From assembly GCF_014203365.1 (NCBI RefSeq), contig NZ_JACHIS010000001.1, positions 4,960,001-5,024,000 of the forward strand: a stretch of 64,000 bases of DNA, in the 5' to 3' direction. The translations under genes were made by a program, and so were the position numbers. Position 1 is the stretch's first letter. The number at the start of each line of letters is the position of its first letter. Below the pieces are notes generated by a model. That model saw only the letters and a program-made list of their open reading frames with translations. It made no database searches and was not told where the DNA came from. This DNA is from Actinoalloteichus hymeniacidonis. GTDB lineage: Bacteria; Actinomycetota; Actinomycetes; Mycobacteriales; Pseudonocardiaceae. Of the stretch, positions 17,728-25,434 are shown one piece after another.

Positions 17728-18914
17728 TGGCGGCCGACGACGATCTGGTGCTCGCCCCGCCGGAGCCGGTCGGGCCGATTCCTCCGGAGCGGGTCGCGGG
17801 CCTGATCCCGGTCTCCGAGGAAGACCGGCAGGCCGCCACCGCGCGCGCAGGCGAACTCGCCGACCGCCTCGCCGCACTGGATGTGCGCTCCCCCGGCTTC
17901 GGCGATGAACTGGAGCGGCTGCTGACGGTCGGCGAAGCGGACATGCGGATCGCCGCCAGTACGGCGGGCAGGCTCATCGACCGGTCGATGCAGGGGCTGT
18001 CCGATACCCGACTGGGCTCGGACACCAGTCAGGCCAAGCTCACCGACAGCCTGGCGGTGCTGCGCCGGAAGGTCGTCGAACTCGCTCCCGCCGACCCGGG
18101 ACAGCCGAGACGACGGTTGTTCGGGCTGTTCACCACGAGCCGAGATCACAACGCCCTGATCGCCCGCTACCGGGCGGCAGGCGAACCGATCAACGCCCTG
18201 ATAATGGAGCTGCGGGGCCGACAGGACATGTTGCGCCGCGACAATGCATCGCTCAAGGGCGAACGGCAGCGGTTGTGGGCGGCGATGGGCAGGCTGTCGG
18301 ACGCGGCCCTGTTCACCGAGGCGGTGGACGAGGCGGTGGAACGGCAGGCGGGTCTGCTGGAGCTGGTCGACCCGGAGCGGGTCACCGCGCTGCGCTCCGA
18401 CGTGCTGTTCCCGCTTCGGCGACGGCGTCAGGACATCCTCACCCAGCTCGCGGTGTTCGCGCAGGGCTACCTGGCGCTGGATCTGTTGCGGCGCACCAAC
18501 GACGAGCTGATCCGGGGCGTCGATCGGGCGGTCACCACCACCGTCGCGGCGCTGCGGATCGCGCTGGTGATCAGTGCCGCGCTGGCCAACCAACGCGACG
18601 TGCTCGACGAGGTCGACGCGCTGTCCTCGGTCACCGACGGCCTGTTGCGCTCCAACAGCGAGCTACTGGCCACCCAGGCCGAACAGGTTCGCCAGGCGGG
18701 CACCGATCCGACGATCGCCGTGTCGACGATCCGCGAGTCCTTCGATCGGATTCATCGGGCCATCGACGCCGTGGACGGCTTCCGGGCCTCGGCGGTGGAC
18801 TCGATGGCCACCACCGTCCAGGCGTTGTCCGAGGAGATCCGCCATTCCGAGGCATACCTGCGCCGCTCGCACGAGGCGGGTCTCGCCGAGGACACCCCTG
18901 AGGAGAGCCGATGA
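17727..18914 (+). CDS. TelA/KlaA-family toxic anion resistance protein
   Basis: The 395-residue, mostly helical cytoplasmic protein matches the TelA family (PF05816): a short N-terminal linker, then LADRLAALDVRSPGFGDELERLLTVGEADMRIAASTAGRLIDR, a central RYRAAGEPINALIMELRGRQDMLRRDNASLKGER helix, and TNDELIRGVDRAVTTTVAALRIALVISAALANQRDVLDEV. TelA proteins are linked to tellurite and cell-envelope stress resistance, with an unclear biochemical role. It is joined by a 1-base overlap to the gene before and a 4-base overlap (ATGA) to the gene after. TelA is commonly paired with XpaC, which is the fourth gene here. Confidence 0.88.
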   Translation: MAADDDLVLAPPEPVGPIPPERVAGLIPVSEEDRQAATARAGELADRLAALDVRSPGFGDELERLLTVGEADMRIAASTAGRLIDRSMQGLSDTRLGSDTSQAKLTDSLAVLRRKVVELAPADPGQPRRRLFGLFTTSRDHNALIARYRAAGEPINALIMELRGRQDMLRRDNASLKGERQRLWAAMGRLSDAALFTEAVDEAVERQAGLLELVDPERVTALRSDVLFPLRRRRQDILTQLAVFAQGYLALDLLRRTNDELIRGVDRAVTTTVAALRIALVISAALANQRDVLDEVDALSSVTDGLLRSNSELLATQAEQVRQAGTDPTIAVSTIRESFDRIHRAIDAVDGFRASAVDSMATTVQALSEEIRHSEAYLRRSHEAGLAEDTPEESR

Positions 18915-20527
18915 GGACGCCCACCATCGCCGTCGCCGCGCTGCTGTGCGTGGCGACGCTGGCCTCCTGTACCGGAGCGGATCCCGACACTCCGGAGACC
19001 ACGACGTTGCGCGTGTTGGCGGGCAGCGAGTTGGCCGATATGGAGTCGATCCTGCGACAGGCCGCAGCCGAGACGGGGGTGACGGTGGAGTTCGAGTTCA
19101 CCGGCACCCTGGAGGGCGCGGAGATCCTGGCCTCGGATTCGGTGCTGAATCACGCCTACGACGCGATCTGGTTCTCCTCCAACCGCTATCTGGAGGCGAT
19201 CCCCGACACGGCGGGTCTGTTGGGCGAACAGGTTCAGATCATGAGTTCCCCGGTGCTGCTGGCGCTGTCCACCCCGGTGGTCGAACGGCTGGGCTGGGTG
19301 GGCGAACCGGTGGACTGGCGGCGGATCGGCGAGGCCGCAGGCGCGGGCGATTTCACCTACGGGATGACCGATCCATCGGCGTCGAACTCCGGGTTCTCGG
19401 CGCTGGTCGCGGTGTCCTCCGCACTGGCCGACACCGGTAGTGCGGTGGATGCCGAGCAGGTTCGCCGGATCACCCCGGAGCTGACGGAGTTCTTCCGGGG
19501 TCAGACGGTGTCCGCTGGCTCGTCCCGCTGGTTGACCGGGGCGTTCACCTCGCGTGCCAGTGGCGAGGAACCGGGCGACGTGGTGGACGGACTGATCAAC
19601 TACGAGTCCGAGCTGCTGGCGTTGGCGGACGACCCGGCGCTGCCCGACCCGCTGACCCTGCTCTATCCCACCGACGGCGTCGTCACCGCCGACTATCCAC
19701 TCACCCTGTTGGCGGACTCGGACGACGAGGCCCGCGCCGCGCACGGCAGGCTGAGCGAGTACCTCCGGCAACCGGAGGTCCAGCGGTCGATCATGGAGAC
19801 CACTCGCCGCCGCCCGGTGGTGCCGGGCGTGGAGTTGTCCGAGGAGTTCGGCGACACCGAGTTGCTGGAACTCCCGTTCCCGGCCACCGACGACTCGGTG
19901 GACGCGCTGTTGTCGGCCTACTTCAACGAGATCCGACGCCCTTCGCGAACCGTGTACGTCCTGGACACCTCCGGCTCGATGGCGGGCGAGCGCATCGAGG
20001 CGCTGCGCACGGCGCTGACCGACCTCACCGGCGGGGACCGGTCGACGCTCGGGCGATATCGGGGCGTTCGGGGCCGGGAGGAGGTCACCCTGCTGCCGTT
20101 CACGGCGAGACCTGCGCCGCCGCAGACGTTCACGGTGCCCGAGTCCGAGCCTGCGGCGGAGTTGGCCAGGATCGCCGAGGCCGCCGATGGGTTGACGGCG
20201 ACGGGCAGCACGGCGATCTACGACAGTCTGCTGGCGGCCTACCGCCTCGCGGGCGAAGCCGACGAGGCCGACCCGGACCGGTTCACCTCCATCGTGCTGA
20301 TGACCGACGGGGACAACGCCGAGGGCGCGGATCTCGCCGCCTTCCAAGCCGAGCACGCGGACTTCCCTGCGGCGTGGCGCGACATTCCGGTGTTCACCGT
20401 TCCGCTGGGCGAGGGCGACCGCGAGGAGATGGCCGAGGTGGCGGACTCGACCGGCGGCGCGATGTTCGATCCGGGCGACGGCGTCGACCTGGCCAGCGTC
20501 TTCGACGAGATTCGCGGGTATCAATGA
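18911..20527 (+). CDS. lipoprotein with binding-protein and VWA domains
   Basis: The 538-residue lipoprotein has a signal with lipobox LASC (Cys20). Residues 32-325 look like a type II periplasmic binding protein (TLRVLAGSELADMESILRQAAAETGVTVEFEFTG, DAIWFSSNRYLEA, DPSASNSGFSAL). Residues 345-535 form a von Willebrand A domain with an intact MIDAS: D352-T-S354-G-S356, a TGSTAIYDS loop and MTDGDN. This fusion would put a metal-dependent protein-binding module next to a ligand-binding module on the outer face of the membrane. Both overlaps are 4 bp, so it is translated with TelA and the XpaC-like protein. Confidence 0.88.
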   Translation: MRTPTIAVAALLCVATLASCTGADPDTPETTTLRVLAGSELADMESILRQAAAETGVTVEFEFTGTLEGAEILASDSVLNHAYDAIWFSSNRYLEAIPDTAGLLGEQVQIMSSPVLLALSTPVVERLGWVGEPVDWRRIGEAAGAGDFTYGMTDPSASNSGFSALVAVSSALADTGSAVDAEQVRRITPELTEFFRGQTVSAGSSRWLTGAFTSRASGEEPGDVVDGLINYESELLALADDPALPDPLTLLYPTDGVVTADYPLTLLADSDDEARAAHGRLSEYLRQPEVQRSIMETTRRRPVVPGVELSEEFGDTELLELPFPATDDSVDALLSAYFNEIRRPSRTVYVLDTSGSMAGERIEALRTALTDLTGGDRSTLGRYRGVRGREEVTLLPFTARPAPPQTFTVPESEPAAELARIAEAADGLTATGSTAIYDSLLAAYRLAGEADEADPDRFTSIVLMTDGDNAEGADLAAFQAEHADFPAAWRDIPVFTVPLGEGDREEMAEVADSTGGAMFDPGDGVDLASVFDEIRGYQ

Positions 20528-21132: not shown

Positions 21133-21246
21133 GGCGTCCGGTTCGCCGTCGGGCCTGCTTCGGCTGGCACCGAGGATCGGTGGATCACCCACGGTGTTCC
21201 GCTAATTACGGTGCGGGGTGCCACCACGGGCGAATACGCTGGTGGC

Positions 21247-22026
21247 ATGGCGATGTCCCGCCCCGGCGAACCGACGGCGCTCTCGTCGTCGACCGATCCG
21301 GATGTCGCCGACGTGGACGCCGGCCGCACCTCGGCCGCCTGGGAACGACACGTCGCGACGCTGCCGCTGCGCCGGTCCGATTACGAGGCGATGCGGGCCC
21401 GCCGTCGGCGCCGCTACGAACGCATCGCGCGCGGCTGGGCGGCAGGCGAGATTCCCAGGCAGTGGTCGGGTCCGGTGCCGTTCGAGGCCGAGGCCACCCG
21501 GGTCGTCGATGTCGCGCTGGTCTTGTTCCCCGCGCTGCTGCAGTCCCCCGGTTACGCGCGCGAGCTGTTCACCGTCGATGGCCGGGGCTCCGGCGAGTTG
21601 GCCGCCGATCTCGATACCCGGCTCGCCAGACAGGCGATCCTGACCCGCGAGCGCGGCCCCGTGGAGTTCGAGGCGTTCATCGACGAGCCGGTGTTGCTCC
21701 GGCCGATCGGCGGACCGGTCGTGATGGTCGAGCAGTTGCGCCATGTGTTGACGATGTCCCGGCTGCCGAATGTGTGCGTGCGGATAATTCCGACCAGCGC
21801 GGGTGGTCGGGTTCGCCTCGAAGGCGGGTTCCAGGCCTTGGAGTTCCCGCTGCGGTCGACGGTCGTGCATCTGGAGCACGGCAGGCTGCGTGGCTCCTTC
21901 GATCGGGACGAGGACACCGCTGTCTTCACCGAGATGATCCGGACGCTCGCTGGGAGCGCGTTGTCGCCCGCAGATTCGGCCACGCTGCTCGCCCGGCTGA
22001 TCTCCGAGTTGGAGGCACGGTTCTGA
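21247..22026 (+). CDS. DUF5753 protein lacking the HTH domain
   Basis: The 259-residue protein (ATG 21247) carries the DUF5753 core: FEAEATRVVDVALVLFPALLQSPGYARELF, LARQAILTRERGPVEFEAFIDEPVLLRPIGGPVVMVEQLRHVLTMSRLPNVCVRIIP and a terminal helix. In most relatives an XRE-type helix-turn-helix precedes this domain; here the first 75 residues instead read WERHVATLPLRRSDYEAMRARRRRRYERIARGW, a basic helical segment with no HTH. No DUF397 partner is adjacent. It could act as a ligand-binding partner for an XRE regulator encoded elsewhere, such as the one at 54071. Confidence 0.75.
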   Translation: MAMSRPGEPTALSSSTDPDVADVDAGRTSAAWERHVATLPLRRSDYEAMRARRRRRYERIARGWAAGEIPRQWSGPVPFEAEATRVVDVALVLFPALLQSPGYARELFTVDGRGSGELAADLDTRLARQAILTRERGPVEFEAFIDEPVLLRPIGGPVVMVEQLRHVLTMSRLPNVCVRIIPTSAGGRVRLEGGFQALEFPLRSTVVHLEHGRLRGSFDRDEDTAVFTEMIRTLAGSALSPADSATLLARLISELEARF

Positions 22027-22228: not shown

Positions 22229-22323
22229 CTGTCACCTGCTCCGTCTTGGCCTTAACTTCGAAAAGGAAGATCACCGCGCGTCTGCATCCCGATGGATCTC
22301 CAGCCAGGGAAGGGAACGACACC

Positions 22324-23376
22324 GTGAGCTCCAGCATTCTCGAGATCGTGGCACCGCATTCACTGGGGGCGGCCGCAGTCGTCCGGTCGGATGGCGACCT
22401 TGCGCTTCATGGAATCCTCTTGGAGTGGACGGTGGGCGCCAATAGCGGGGGCGAATGGCCGCCGCCTGCGGACTGGAACGACGGCGATGCCGCCTATCCC
22501 CACTTCTACGAGGTGTGGCTCAACGGCGGGCGGATCAAGCAGACCGTCGGGCTGTTCTGGCCCGCCGAGGCGCCGGGCTGGATCCTGGCCCGTTCGCACT
22601 GGGTGTGTCTGGGCACCGAACCCGATCTGGAGTACCGGGTGAAGATCCGGGCCAAGCTGGACAACGGTTCCTGGAGTGAGTTCAGCAACGAGATCGTCGT
22701 CGACACGGGTTCTCCCCGCCCCTACACCTCGGTGGGCCCCGCCACGGGACCGTCGCGGGATCCGGCGGCGGGTCTGCGGCACGGCAGCCTCAGCCACCCC
22801 GCGAGCCGGGCGGTGTTGGCGATCCGCGACGACGATCCCGCCGATATCTGCATCCAGGCCAGGAAACTCAACACCAGCGCCACCTGGCAGGAGGTCGCGC
22901 CGCCCGCAGCCGCGATGCTGGCCGATCCACCGTGGAACGGCTCCTACCTGGAGTACCGCAAGTTCTTCCGAGGCCAGGATGTGGCCTCGGCGGGCAATCC
23001 GGCCTTCTCCGGTCTCGATCTGGTCGGCGAGTGGCCGACGACCATCCTGTCCGCCGCCGACACCGAGCATGCCTTCTCCTACACCTACAACGCCCACCAC
23101 GTCGACCCGACCTGGACCCACCAGTGGTTCATCACCAAGGACGACTGGGATCCGGATGGCGTGTTGTCCTGGGACGATCTGGAGCCGGTGCCGTTCATGA
23201 CCGAGATCCACGGCGATCCCGGGATCACCAATTACTGCACCGAGGCGATCCCGAGGACCAAACACGGCAGGCACATGGTCGTCAACGTCTGGGGCGGCCA
23301 TGGCGGCCCTCGACTGCCGGATGGCACCTTGGCGGGTGAGTTCTTCGTGTCCTGTTCGGACGTGGAGTTCGTCTGA
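22324..23376 (+). CDS. FnIII-like + AA10-like lytic polysaccharide monooxygenase with internal His brace
   Basis: The 350-residue protein starts at GTG 22324, preceded by AAGGGAA. Residues about 8-140 resemble an FnIII-type sandwich (HGILLEWTVGA, FYEVWLNGG, YRVKIRAKLDNGSWSEFSNEIVVD). Residues 153-350 match AA10 oxygenases: HGSLSHPASRA at H153, AHH at 258-259, TWTHQWFITKDDWDPDG, LSWDDLEPVPF, and a final EFFVSCSDVEF with the axial Phe and a disulphide Cys. In known LPMOs the first His must be the N-terminal residue of the mature enzyme, but here it is internal and I find no signal peptide. Either proteolysis exposes H153 or the domain is not a standard LPMO. Confidence 0.8.
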   Translation: MSSSILEIVAPHSLGAAAVVRSDGDLALHGILLEWTVGANSGGEWPPPADWNDGDAAYPHFYEVWLNGGRIKQTVGLFWPAEAPGWILARSHWVCLGTEPDLEYRVKIRAKLDNGSWSEFSNEIVVDTGSPRPYTSVGPATGPSRDPAAGLRHGSLSHPASRAVLAIRDDDPADICIQARKLNTSATWQEVAPPAAAMLADPPWNGSYLEYRKFFRGQDVASAGNPAFSGLDLVGEWPTTILSAADTEHAFSYTYNAHHVDPTWTHQWFITKDDWDPDGVLSWDDLEPVPFMTEIHGDPGITNYCTEAIPRTKHGRHMVVNVWGGHGGPRLPDGTLAGEFFVSCSDVEFV

Positions 23377-23395: not shown

Positions 23396-24280
23396 TCAGG
23401 CCGCCAGGAGTGCGCCGAGGTCGACGCCGAGTTCCGGGGCACAGTGCGCGAGGAAGGCCAGCCACAGACAACCGGTTCTGGCCCGGACCCATCCCAGGAA
23501 CAGCCCGGCGATTCCGGTTGCGACGATGGCGCCGAGGTTGACCGCCACGCCATTCACGGGGTCGAAGAGGACCCCGTGGCCGAGCCCGAAACCGATGCTC
23601 GTCAGTACCAGCCCCATTCCGGCCGGGGCCCCGAAGAAGCGCCACGGGGTGCCGAAAGCGCGATCGAGTACGGCGAGCATCGCGCCGCGCCAGATCAGTT
23701 CCTCGGTCAGGTTCGGCACCGTCGCGTCGAAGAGCAGGCGTTCGGCGTTGGGCACCGCCACGGAGCCGGGCGCGAGGATGGCGCTGAGAATCGTCATACC
23801 GGCCACCACCACGAAGATCCCGATGATGGGCGGGAGCGCCGAGCGCAGCGAGCCGGGTTCTGGTCGCCACCGGAGTCCCGCCTCGGTGCTCGCCCAGCGT
23901 CGCAGCATGATGAACAGCACGCCGACCCAGACGAGGTCTAGGAGTTTGCCCTGCCAGTTCCATTCCAGGTCGGCGAACACCCCCATCCTGGGCATCGAGA
24001 CCGACAGCGCGGTCAGCACCAGGAACACCCCGGCGACGGAGGAGGCGCGCAGAGCTCCGGGCGTGCGAAGCCCCGCTACCAGCACGATCGGCGCCAGTAG
24101 GGCGAGCATCAACAGCGCCCACACCGAGGCGGCCGATAGTTCACGCCAGGCTGTCTCGGGGCCGACGACCGCGACGGCGAGGCCGCCAACGGCAAGGATC
24201 GGGGCCAACGTGGGCAGGACCCAACGGGCGGTATCGACCGGTCCGATCGCAGGTTCGCCGTAGGGAGACGGTGTGGTCAT
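23396..24280 (-). CDS. CPBP-family intramembrane protease 1
   Basis: The 294-residue protein (ATG 24280) has about eight membrane segments. The CPBP (Rce1-like) catalytic motifs are E193-E194-L-I-W-R198, then FGLGHG and FLAH with the second and third histidine elements. Members cleave prenylated or other membrane substrates or act in bacteriocin self-immunity; none can be chosen here. It ends 19 bp from the stop of the convergent AA10-like gene. Confidence 0.85.
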   Translation of the reverse strand: MTTPSPYGEPAIGPVDTARWVLPTLAPILAVGGLAVAVVGPETAWRELSAASVWALLMLALLAPIVLVAGLRTPGALRASSVAGVFLVLTALSVSMPRMGVFADLEWNWQGKLLDLVWVGVLFIMLRRWASTEAGLRWRPEPGSLRSALPPIIGIFVVVAGMTILSAILAPGSVAVPNAERLLFDATVPNLTEELIWRGAMLAVLDRAFGTPWRFFGAPAGMGLVLTSIGFGLGHGVLFDPVNGVAVNLGAIVATGIAGLFLGWVRARTGCLWLAFLAHCAPELGVDLGALLAA

Positions 24281-24456
24281 ATCGGAAATCAGATCAGGAA
24301 CGCCTCCGATGTCCGGTATGCCGGTTGTTCGACCCTCTTCGCTCGGCGGGTCGTCGGGGTCACGCCATCGGTGCAGCTTGACCCGAACTCCGGTTGAGGT
24401 TGCAGGATCGATGGCGACCGACACACCGACTTCCCGCGATCGATCGAGGAACGTCC

Positions 24457-25434
24457 ATGTATGCGATACGACTGCTCGAGTTCGGCCCCGCCGAGAATCT
24501 GCGTTATCTCCAGGTGCCGGACCCGATTCCGGCCCGGGGACAGGTACGCATCGCCGTCGCCGCCGCCGGAGTGCACCTGATCCATACCCGGCTGCGCACC
24601 GGCAGCACGGTGGGTCCGAACACGTGGACGACTCCGACGACGCCGGGCAGCCAGGTGGCCGGGGTGGTCGACCAGGTCGGCCCCGGGGTGGCGGAGTCCT
24701 GGCTCGGCCAGCGTGTCGCGGCGAATGCAACGGGCCGCGAGGGCGGCTATGCCGAGTTGGCCATCGCCGAGGCCGATTCGCTGCATTCGCTGCCCGCGCA
24801 ACTCTCCGCAGAGGCGGCGGTGGCGATGCTCGGCAGCGGTGGGACCGCGCGCGGGATCATCGACTTCGCCGAGTTCACCGACGAGGATGTCGTACTGATC
24901 ACCTCGGCGGCGGGCGGGATGGGCAGTCTGTTCGTCCAAGCCGCGGTCGCGGCGGGGGCCACTGCGGTCGGGATCGCGGGCGGAGCGGCGAAGGTGCAGC
25001 GGGTGCGCACGCTCGGGGCCGAGGTGGCCGTGGACTACCTGCTCGACGACTGGCCACAGCGCGTTCGGGCGGAGCTCGCGGGCCGGGAGGTCACGGTGGT
25101 CCTCGATGGGACCGGCGGCGACATCGGTCGGGCCGCACTGGAACTGCTCGGTGTCGGCGGCAGGATGCTGCTGCACGGGATGGCCTCGGGCGCCCCCACC
25201 GAGCTCAGCACGGCCGACCTGGCGAACCGAAGCCTCACCGCCAGTTGGGTGCTCGGACCCCAGCTGACCAGGAAGGCGGGCAGCTGGGAGCGGTTGTCCG
25301 CGTTGGCGCTGGCCGACGCCGCCGAGGGCCGACTCACCCCGACGATCAGTGGTTTCCCGTTGTCCCAGGCGGCGGAGGCCCATCGCGCCCTGGAGAACCG
25401 GGAGACCGTCGGAGCGGTCGTGCTGACCGTCTGA
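24457..25434 (+). CDS. NADPH:quinone-oxidoreductase-like zinc-free MDR enzyme
   Basis: The 325-residue protein (ATG 24457, CGAGGAA upstream) has the medium-chain dehydrogenase layout: GroES-like N-terminal half (VPDPIPARGQVRIAVAAAGVHLIH) and a Rossmann half with ITSAAGGMGSLFVQAA, the GxGxxG-type nucleotide motif. The zinc-binding cysteines of alcohol dehydrogenases are absent, which places it with quinone oxidoreductases or enoyl reductases. Physiological substrate is unknown. It is probably transcribed alone. Confidence 0.88.
   Translation: MYAIRLLEFGPAENLRYLQVPDPIPARGQVRIAVAAAGVHLIHTRLRTGSTVGPNTWTTPTTPGSQVAGVVDQVGPGVAESWLGQRVAANATGREGGYAELAIAEADSLHSLPAQLSAEAAVAMLGSGGTARGIIDFAEFTDEDVVLITSAAGGMGSLFVQAAVAAGATAVGIAGGAAKVQRVRTLGAEVAVDYLLDDWPQRVRAELAGREVTVVLDGTGGDIGRAALELLGVGGRMLLHGMASGAPTELSTADLANRSLTASWVLGPQLTRKAGSWERLSALALADAAEGRLTPTISGFPLSQAAEAHRALENRETVGAVVLTV

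Follow-up and report, generated by a model that had tools for sequence, protein, structure and literature searches.

According to the sections consulted of one review, the LPMO domain of multimodular LPMOs is always N-terminal (PMC10154629), and those of another state that a signal peptide is present in every LPMO and every histidine-brace protein known so far and that its removal unmasks the copper site. While the signal peptide is still attached, strong copper binding by the brace is not possible (PMC10952591). AA10 and FnIII-like modules are described together in BcLPMO10A and TfLPMO10B, both arranged as AA10-FnIII-CBM, with the AA10 module first and FnIII acting as a spacer to the CBM (PMC10154629). 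The protein discussed here is encoded in a 64,000-nucleotide stretch of Actinoalloteichus hymeniacidonis DNA (the window) and combines the same two modules, but its FnIII-like domain comes first, and no CBM is found in it by Pfam. The nearest solved structures are those of the AA10 LPMOs 6if7 (Tectaria macrodonta), 7zjb (ScLPMO10D, which has a signal peptide; PMC10067821), and 7sqx/8c5n (CbpD). These share with the window protein the fold (Z 22.2-23.5 over 171-175 residues), both copper histidines, and the axial Phe, whereas its H1 is internal, behind an FnIII-like domain, and without a signal peptide. The leaderless FnIII-AA10 clade to which it belongs breaks both review statements as they are worded in the sections consulted, and no description of such a protein was found in the literature searched, a search that had supplementary files outside its scope.

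The genome of A. hymeniacidonis (6.3 Mb, one contig) holds six PF03067 loci, of which the FnIII-AA10 gene ranks fifth by score. Its features are given below, with counts that refer to 23 leaderless family members and 35 secreted AA10s.

22310..22315, + strand: putative Shine-Dalgarno-like AAGGGA, spotted by eye, 8 bases before the GTG
22324..23376, + strand: gene for the leaderless FnIII-AA10 protein, 350 aa, with a GTG start that matches that of relatives and a TGA stop
22354..22701, + strand: N-terminal FnIII-like domain, residues 11-126, based on conserved positions, FnIII fold, and dN/dS
22702..22776, + strand: unconserved linker, residues 127-151, with 0/25 invariant positions and low pLDDT at 146-149
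22777..22782, + strand: R152-H153 junction, proposed cleavage site R|H, with Arg in 21/23 and His in 23/23, Arg also in the relative L090
22780..23373, + strand: AA10 / LPMO_10 domain, residues 153-350, by Pfam PF03067 (E 2.7e-22) and Z 23.5 to 6if7
22780..22782, + strand: H153, equivalent of the copper-binding N-terminal His1, by profile, alignment, and structure comparison
23098..23100, + strand: H259, equivalent of the second copper His, in 22/23 leaderless and 35/35 secreted proteins
23344..23346, + strand: F341, equivalent of the AA10 axial Phe, in 23/23 leaderless and 35/35 secreted proteins

A preliminary description of this DNA had called the product AA10-like, with the motif HGSLSHPASR starting at residue 153, and the same ORF, motif, and position were recovered. 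The profile search that it proposed places Pfam LPMO_10 (PF03067) over residues 153-347, with profile positions 1-183 of 183 matched at 80.8 bits versus a curated cut-off of 23. LPMO_10 was also matched by all six of the other leaderless proteins scanned. Structure prediction likewise recovered an AA10 fold for residues 153-350 (rmsd 2.0 with 174 residues aligned to 6if7). The AlphaFold2 model, made from 36 rows, has a mean pLDDT of 86.2 and a pTM of 0.89, and only residues 1-3 and 146-149 form runs that drop below 50; a first model made from 15 rows had a poorly predicted AA10 part, averaging a pLDDT of 64.8 there and falling below 50 over residues 139-171. The input to the 36-row model holds 21 secreted AA10 rows beginning at H1, hand-picked from 34 other AA10s (five paralogues in the same genome and 29 located from a draw of genomes of the class), and these may help to place H153. 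In the best 30 rows of the structure alignment, the AA10 part of the model aligns from residue 153 in 29 and from residue 151 in one (3uam), and residue 153 meets residue 1 of 7zjb, 7sqx, and 6ndq, entries that are numbered from the mature end. The AA10 part also aligns with CBP21. By alignment column, H153, H259, and F341 fall on the same residues in every secreted AA10 compared, a set made up of 31 of the 34 other AA10s and four AA10s beside secreted FnIII genes. Within the leaderless family, H1 and G2 are kept in all 23 proteins. On its profile match, modelled fold, and aligned ligands, the window protein is classed as an AA10. AA10 proteins have as H1 a mature N-terminus freed by signal peptidase; in the window protein, R152 precedes H153, and because H1 is not an end made by signal peptidase, the protein fails the AA10 N-terminus requirement. 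The one leaderless protein without the second copper His is L045 (5318-6379, - strand), a relative in the same genus that has Arg at this position and a divergent stretch after H1, and which may be a decaying copy.

The FnIII-like domain that the preliminary description saw ahead of H153 was also found, as the residues before the linker take an FnIII fold with Z scores (8.2-8.5) that are modest and barely above the level the alignment tool calls common. In the 36-row model, residues 4-133 gave a Z of 8.3 with 3mpc (Fn3-like) and of 8.5 with the FnIII of 5u8r. Used as a profile, the domain matches the final repeats of secreted proteins, with a best E of 3e-10, and when four of those repeats were compared with Pfam fn3, two were above the cut-off and two below. 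Pfam fn3 itself had no match at E up to 1 in the N-terminal domain of the window protein and none at E up to 0.01 in the FnIII-like gene of L090, and the PDB chains searched by sequence with the FnIII-like profile gave none that was convincing (one at E 0.095). Fold and profile link are the grounds for terming the domain FnIII-like. In an alignment of 17 proteins, 34 of its 116 positions are invariant, while the approximately 25 residues of the linker have none and are followed directly by R-H-G. Across eight pairs, dN/dS was 0.04-0.41 for the FnIII-like part, 0.17-0.47 for the AA10 part, and 0-1.0 for the linker, which exceeded both domains in seven of the eight. Both the FnIII-like and the AA10 parts are under purifying selection in 8/8 pairs tested, and the FnIII-AA10 arrangement is thus more than chance.

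The survey for homologues with the same domain order, also suggested in the preliminary description, returned 23 distinct full-length leaderless proteins in actinomycetes. Judged by their sequences, leaderless FnIII-AA10 proteins are a conserved actinomycete family whose full-length members are rare but spread over several genera. In genome draws that overlap, with frequencies not independent of each other, the gene is present in 3/3 genomes of the window's genus and in 4/249 of its family (3/100 in a smaller draw). Genus g28, taken as Streptomyces, gave 10 strong matches (E <1e-44) in 392 genomes, with 26 genomes matching at E up to 1e-6. The family of g28, taken as Streptomycetaceae, gave 9/297 at E up to 1e-20, of which one was already known, one was split, one was broken, and six were new, and a draw from genus g416 gave 4/53, all already known. 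Among the matches listed outside the own genome in the class draw of 394 genomes, none begins before query residue 141, and the phylum draw of 396 genomes has one match of that extent, which is the own genome. A pattern scan of genome contigs, which reaches close relatives only, found two, in Actinokineospora iranica and Actinoallomurus iriomotensis, the former with a protein identical to that of genome G1495 from the window's family. In viral contigs, 42 stretches fit the patterns and none is a relative. Of 29 matching plasmid records, two cover at least 80% of the query, both linear Streptomyces plasmids, and the proteins are annotated as "lytic polysaccharide monooxygenase auxiliary activity family 9 protein". 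In both of these records, L039 and L040, 3.6-6.9 kb separate the gene from one end of the linear Streptomyces plasmid record, a position consistent with horizontal spread. Left out of the counts are L096, which is identical to L037, and L094 (in G1317), a copy that has lost its FnIII front and has a broken AA10 frame and is probably a pseudogene; L090 is counted apart from the 23 as a split gene. L003, L004, and L006 have truncated domain ends or are very divergent, and the column counts and later trees were made without these three, the first tree without L003 and L004.

The leaderless proteins differ from known AA10 LPMOs in several ways beyond the position of H1. There is a short insertion with W264, and the family carries GEFF (23/23, one as GEYF) and WGGHGG (20/23), where secreted relatives have, for example, EAFY and WQRSDSP. 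Each AA10 disulfide pair, as known from AA10 structures, has also lost one of its two Cys. Cys at the equivalents of 166 and 221 is found in 0/23 leaderless versus 35/35 secreted proteins, while the partner Cys is kept in 22/23 at 176 and in 5/23 at 344. Such a loss is in keeping with folding in the cytosol. The AA10 parts of L056 and L057 hold seven Cys each, making other disulfides possible in those two. At the junction, the residue before H1 was Arg in all of the first 17 proteins found, and the exceptions came with the wider search, in which the sister rows L091 (T-P-A) and L092 (A-P-A) carry Ala. Arg before H1 is therefore not universal. In 16/23 proteins the Arg position is preceded by Pro, an arrangement accepted by trypsin- and thrombin-like proteases. 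Alternatively, the Arg could be retained for structural reasons.

The relative L090 (in G1251) provides a view of the same domains in a secreted context. Here, the FnIII-like and AA10 proteins are encoded by two adjacent genes, each with a signal peptide as judged by eye, and the AA10 keeps all four Cys, including those at the 166- and 221-equivalents, along with the copper ligands. The AA10 gene reads ..LSLAALIPAAQA-DQPTTR-HGTLAAP.., with the signal peptide ending ..PAAQA, so that the likely signal-peptidase site leaves six residues, the last of them Arg, before H1. With DQPTTR standing between that site and H1, the L090 AA10 would also need a cut after Arg. Secreted FnIII genes are directly followed by secreted AA10 genes in four further genomes (L058, L061, L064, and L074), making this a recurrent pair, and the FnIII gene of L058 carries CBM_2 by Pfam. 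These five pairs have the same two domain kinds in the same chromosomal order as the window protein but as separate genes, with an AA10 gene whose product carries a signal peptide of its own along with all four Cys. Only L090 shares the R-H at H1, as the AA10s of the other four are ordinary (..A[SA]A-HG) and sit elsewhere in the tree. A first tree (17 leaderless and 32 secreted rows) gave one leaderless clade with support 100/99. The later AA10 tree unites the 23 leaderless rows (98/95) and places L090 as their sister (100/99 for all 24), although L090 and the leaderless rows are on long branches and the tool warns that long rows may be misplaced. The FnIII tree instead puts L090 inside the leaderless rows, next to L056 and L057 (85/83), which disagrees with a simple single fusion and makes a later split of a fused gene possible. 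The fused gene may descend from neighbouring secreted FnIII and AA10 genes like those of L090, with fusion being the presumed direction of change, and both signal peptides would have been lost in the event, as would one Cys from each disulfide pair.

For the internal histidine, the preliminary description had offered three options, namely that the protein is cut before H153, that it binds copper in another way, or that it is not an oxygenase. From the sequence evidence, cutting is favoured since the copper ligands are kept, Arg stands before H1 in 21/23, and R-H lies behind the signal-peptidase site in L090. We think it somewhat probable that the window protein is a latent, zymogen-like AA10 LPMO of the cytosol, in which H1 is masked and which is activated by a cut at R152|H153. 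Synthesis and folding would both take place in the cytoplasm, where the FnIII-like domain and linker would cover H153, so that the histidine brace could not load copper there. The FnIII-like domain and linker would thus occupy the masking place of a signal peptide but bring no export signal. A trypsin-like or other Arg-directed protease would then cut R152|H153, most likely once lysis or another Sec-independent route has released the protein from the cell. This cut would expose His as a free amino terminus and yield a working copper site, presumably able to bind copper and oxidize polysaccharide. The retained ligands, an Arg bordering an otherwise free linker, and the R-H of secreted L090 all point to activation by this cut. 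If true, nature can make a histidine brace by a second route and can also keep the brace off until release, and a natural on-switch would be available for LPMOs produced in the cytosol. The leaderless family is of high interest because it makes the textbook N-terminus requirement directly testable and could show whether a free amino group is truly needed.

The main rival to a latent LPMO is an uncut, non-catalytic binding protein. It is possible, if rather unlikely, that the protein is never cut and is no oxygenase, functioning instead, inside the cell or after release, as a glycan binder whose FnIII-like and AA10 folds have no role beyond binding and whose H153 is structural or binds metal weakly. 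The lack of a visible signal peptide in all 23 members would fit such a protein, as would the absence of a neighbouring protease kept across genera, the lost second copper His of L045, and the two proteins without Arg before H1. These points are set against the retention of both His and the axial Phe in 22/23, a linker that is variable right up to R-H-G, and the R-H that L090 keeps in its secreted context. Alternatively, the cut may take place inside the cell, leaving a cytosolic histidine-brace copper protein that takes part, for example, in handling copper or acts on a glycan within the cell, which we regard as improbable. Without a leader and with one Cys missing from each AA10 disulfide pair, the protein is suited to the cytosol, but free copper there is very low, and the relative L090 has a signal peptide. 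The review sections consulted are on both sides of this question, expecting more cytoplasmic N-terminal-His copper proteins while reporting that every known histidine-brace protein has a secretion signal peptide (PMC10952591). It would take an Arg-directed protease to make the His end and the product to act intracellularly for this to be the first leaderless, cytosolic, protease-gated LPMO-type enzyme, a combination in which we place little confidence.

Each of these readings takes the protein to be leaderless, as the preliminary description did, and no signal peptide was seen in the window protein or in any of the 23 family members. In all 34 of the other AA10s, H1 directly follows a signal peptide, judged by eye, that ends in A-x-A, AFG, or AQS. 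A normal signal peptide before H153 might still be concealed if the start were missed, the frame shifted, or the gene model wrong, and the preliminary description had named a missed start of this kind as its own refutation; upstream DNA divergence, stops, and hydropathy contradict it, and we consider concealment of any kind very improbable. The window frame does stay open for 99 codons upstream of the GTG, yet the most hydrophobic 12-mer in those codons and the first 60 residues has a mean of only 1.49 and lies inside the protein at residue 8. Some relatives have more hydrophobic upstream 12-mers, with means of 2.98 in L087 (21 codons before the start), 2.03 in L054, and 1.97 in L048, which are about as hydrophobic as the two clear signal peptides of the L090 genes (2.25 and 2.38), and L092 has the A-P-A before H1. 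As hydropathy alone fails to separate every case, more weight falls on the stops and the shared start. A stop in the same frame stands 2-10 codons ahead of the start in 7/23 family members, too close for a signal peptide to fit, and DNA similarity to two relatives fades 5' of the start codon. Any such hydrophobic stretch would also be separated from H1 by an FnIII part under purifying selection in all eight pairs, and the missing Cys of each disulfide pair speaks against a hidden leader as well. An internal translation start at H153 is ruled out, as the preceding codon is CGG and any start further up leaves extra residues in front.

The surroundings of the gene were compared at 17 loci, without those found later, using ORFs of at least 100 aa within about 2-9 kb on either side and BLASTP at E up to 1e-12. 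At these loci, no neighbouring gene accompanied the family from one genus to another, and no protease or export system was tied to the leaderless family among them. One neighbour protein without a Pfam match is common to L039, L076, and L077, and the remaining shared matches are weaker, scattered, or confined to one pair. A contractile injection system was considered as an export route, and the phage-sheath gene PF04984 was present in 11/13 gene-bearing genomes (absent from G435 and G702) versus 63/101 evenly drawn g28 genomes, a draw that includes some gene-bearing genomes, and the difference is not decisive. Downstream in the window, at 23396-24730 (- strand), a gene for an Rce1-like/CPBP intramembrane protease faces the AA10 gene. 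This gene sits beside the AA10 gene in all three genomes of the window's genus and was not found at the other 14 loci compared, and the CPBP protease was dropped as a cutter of the FnIII-AA10 protein because it is not found beside the gene in other genera. Directly upstream, at 21211-22026 (+ strand), is a DUF5753 protein with no other Pfam match, which occurs in the same three genomes; L038 has a DUF5753 match approximately 5.5 kb from its FnIII-AA10 gene. Further upstream, at 18911-20527 (+ strand), the window encodes an extracellular solute-binding SBP_bac_11 domain and a VWA-like domain in one protein.
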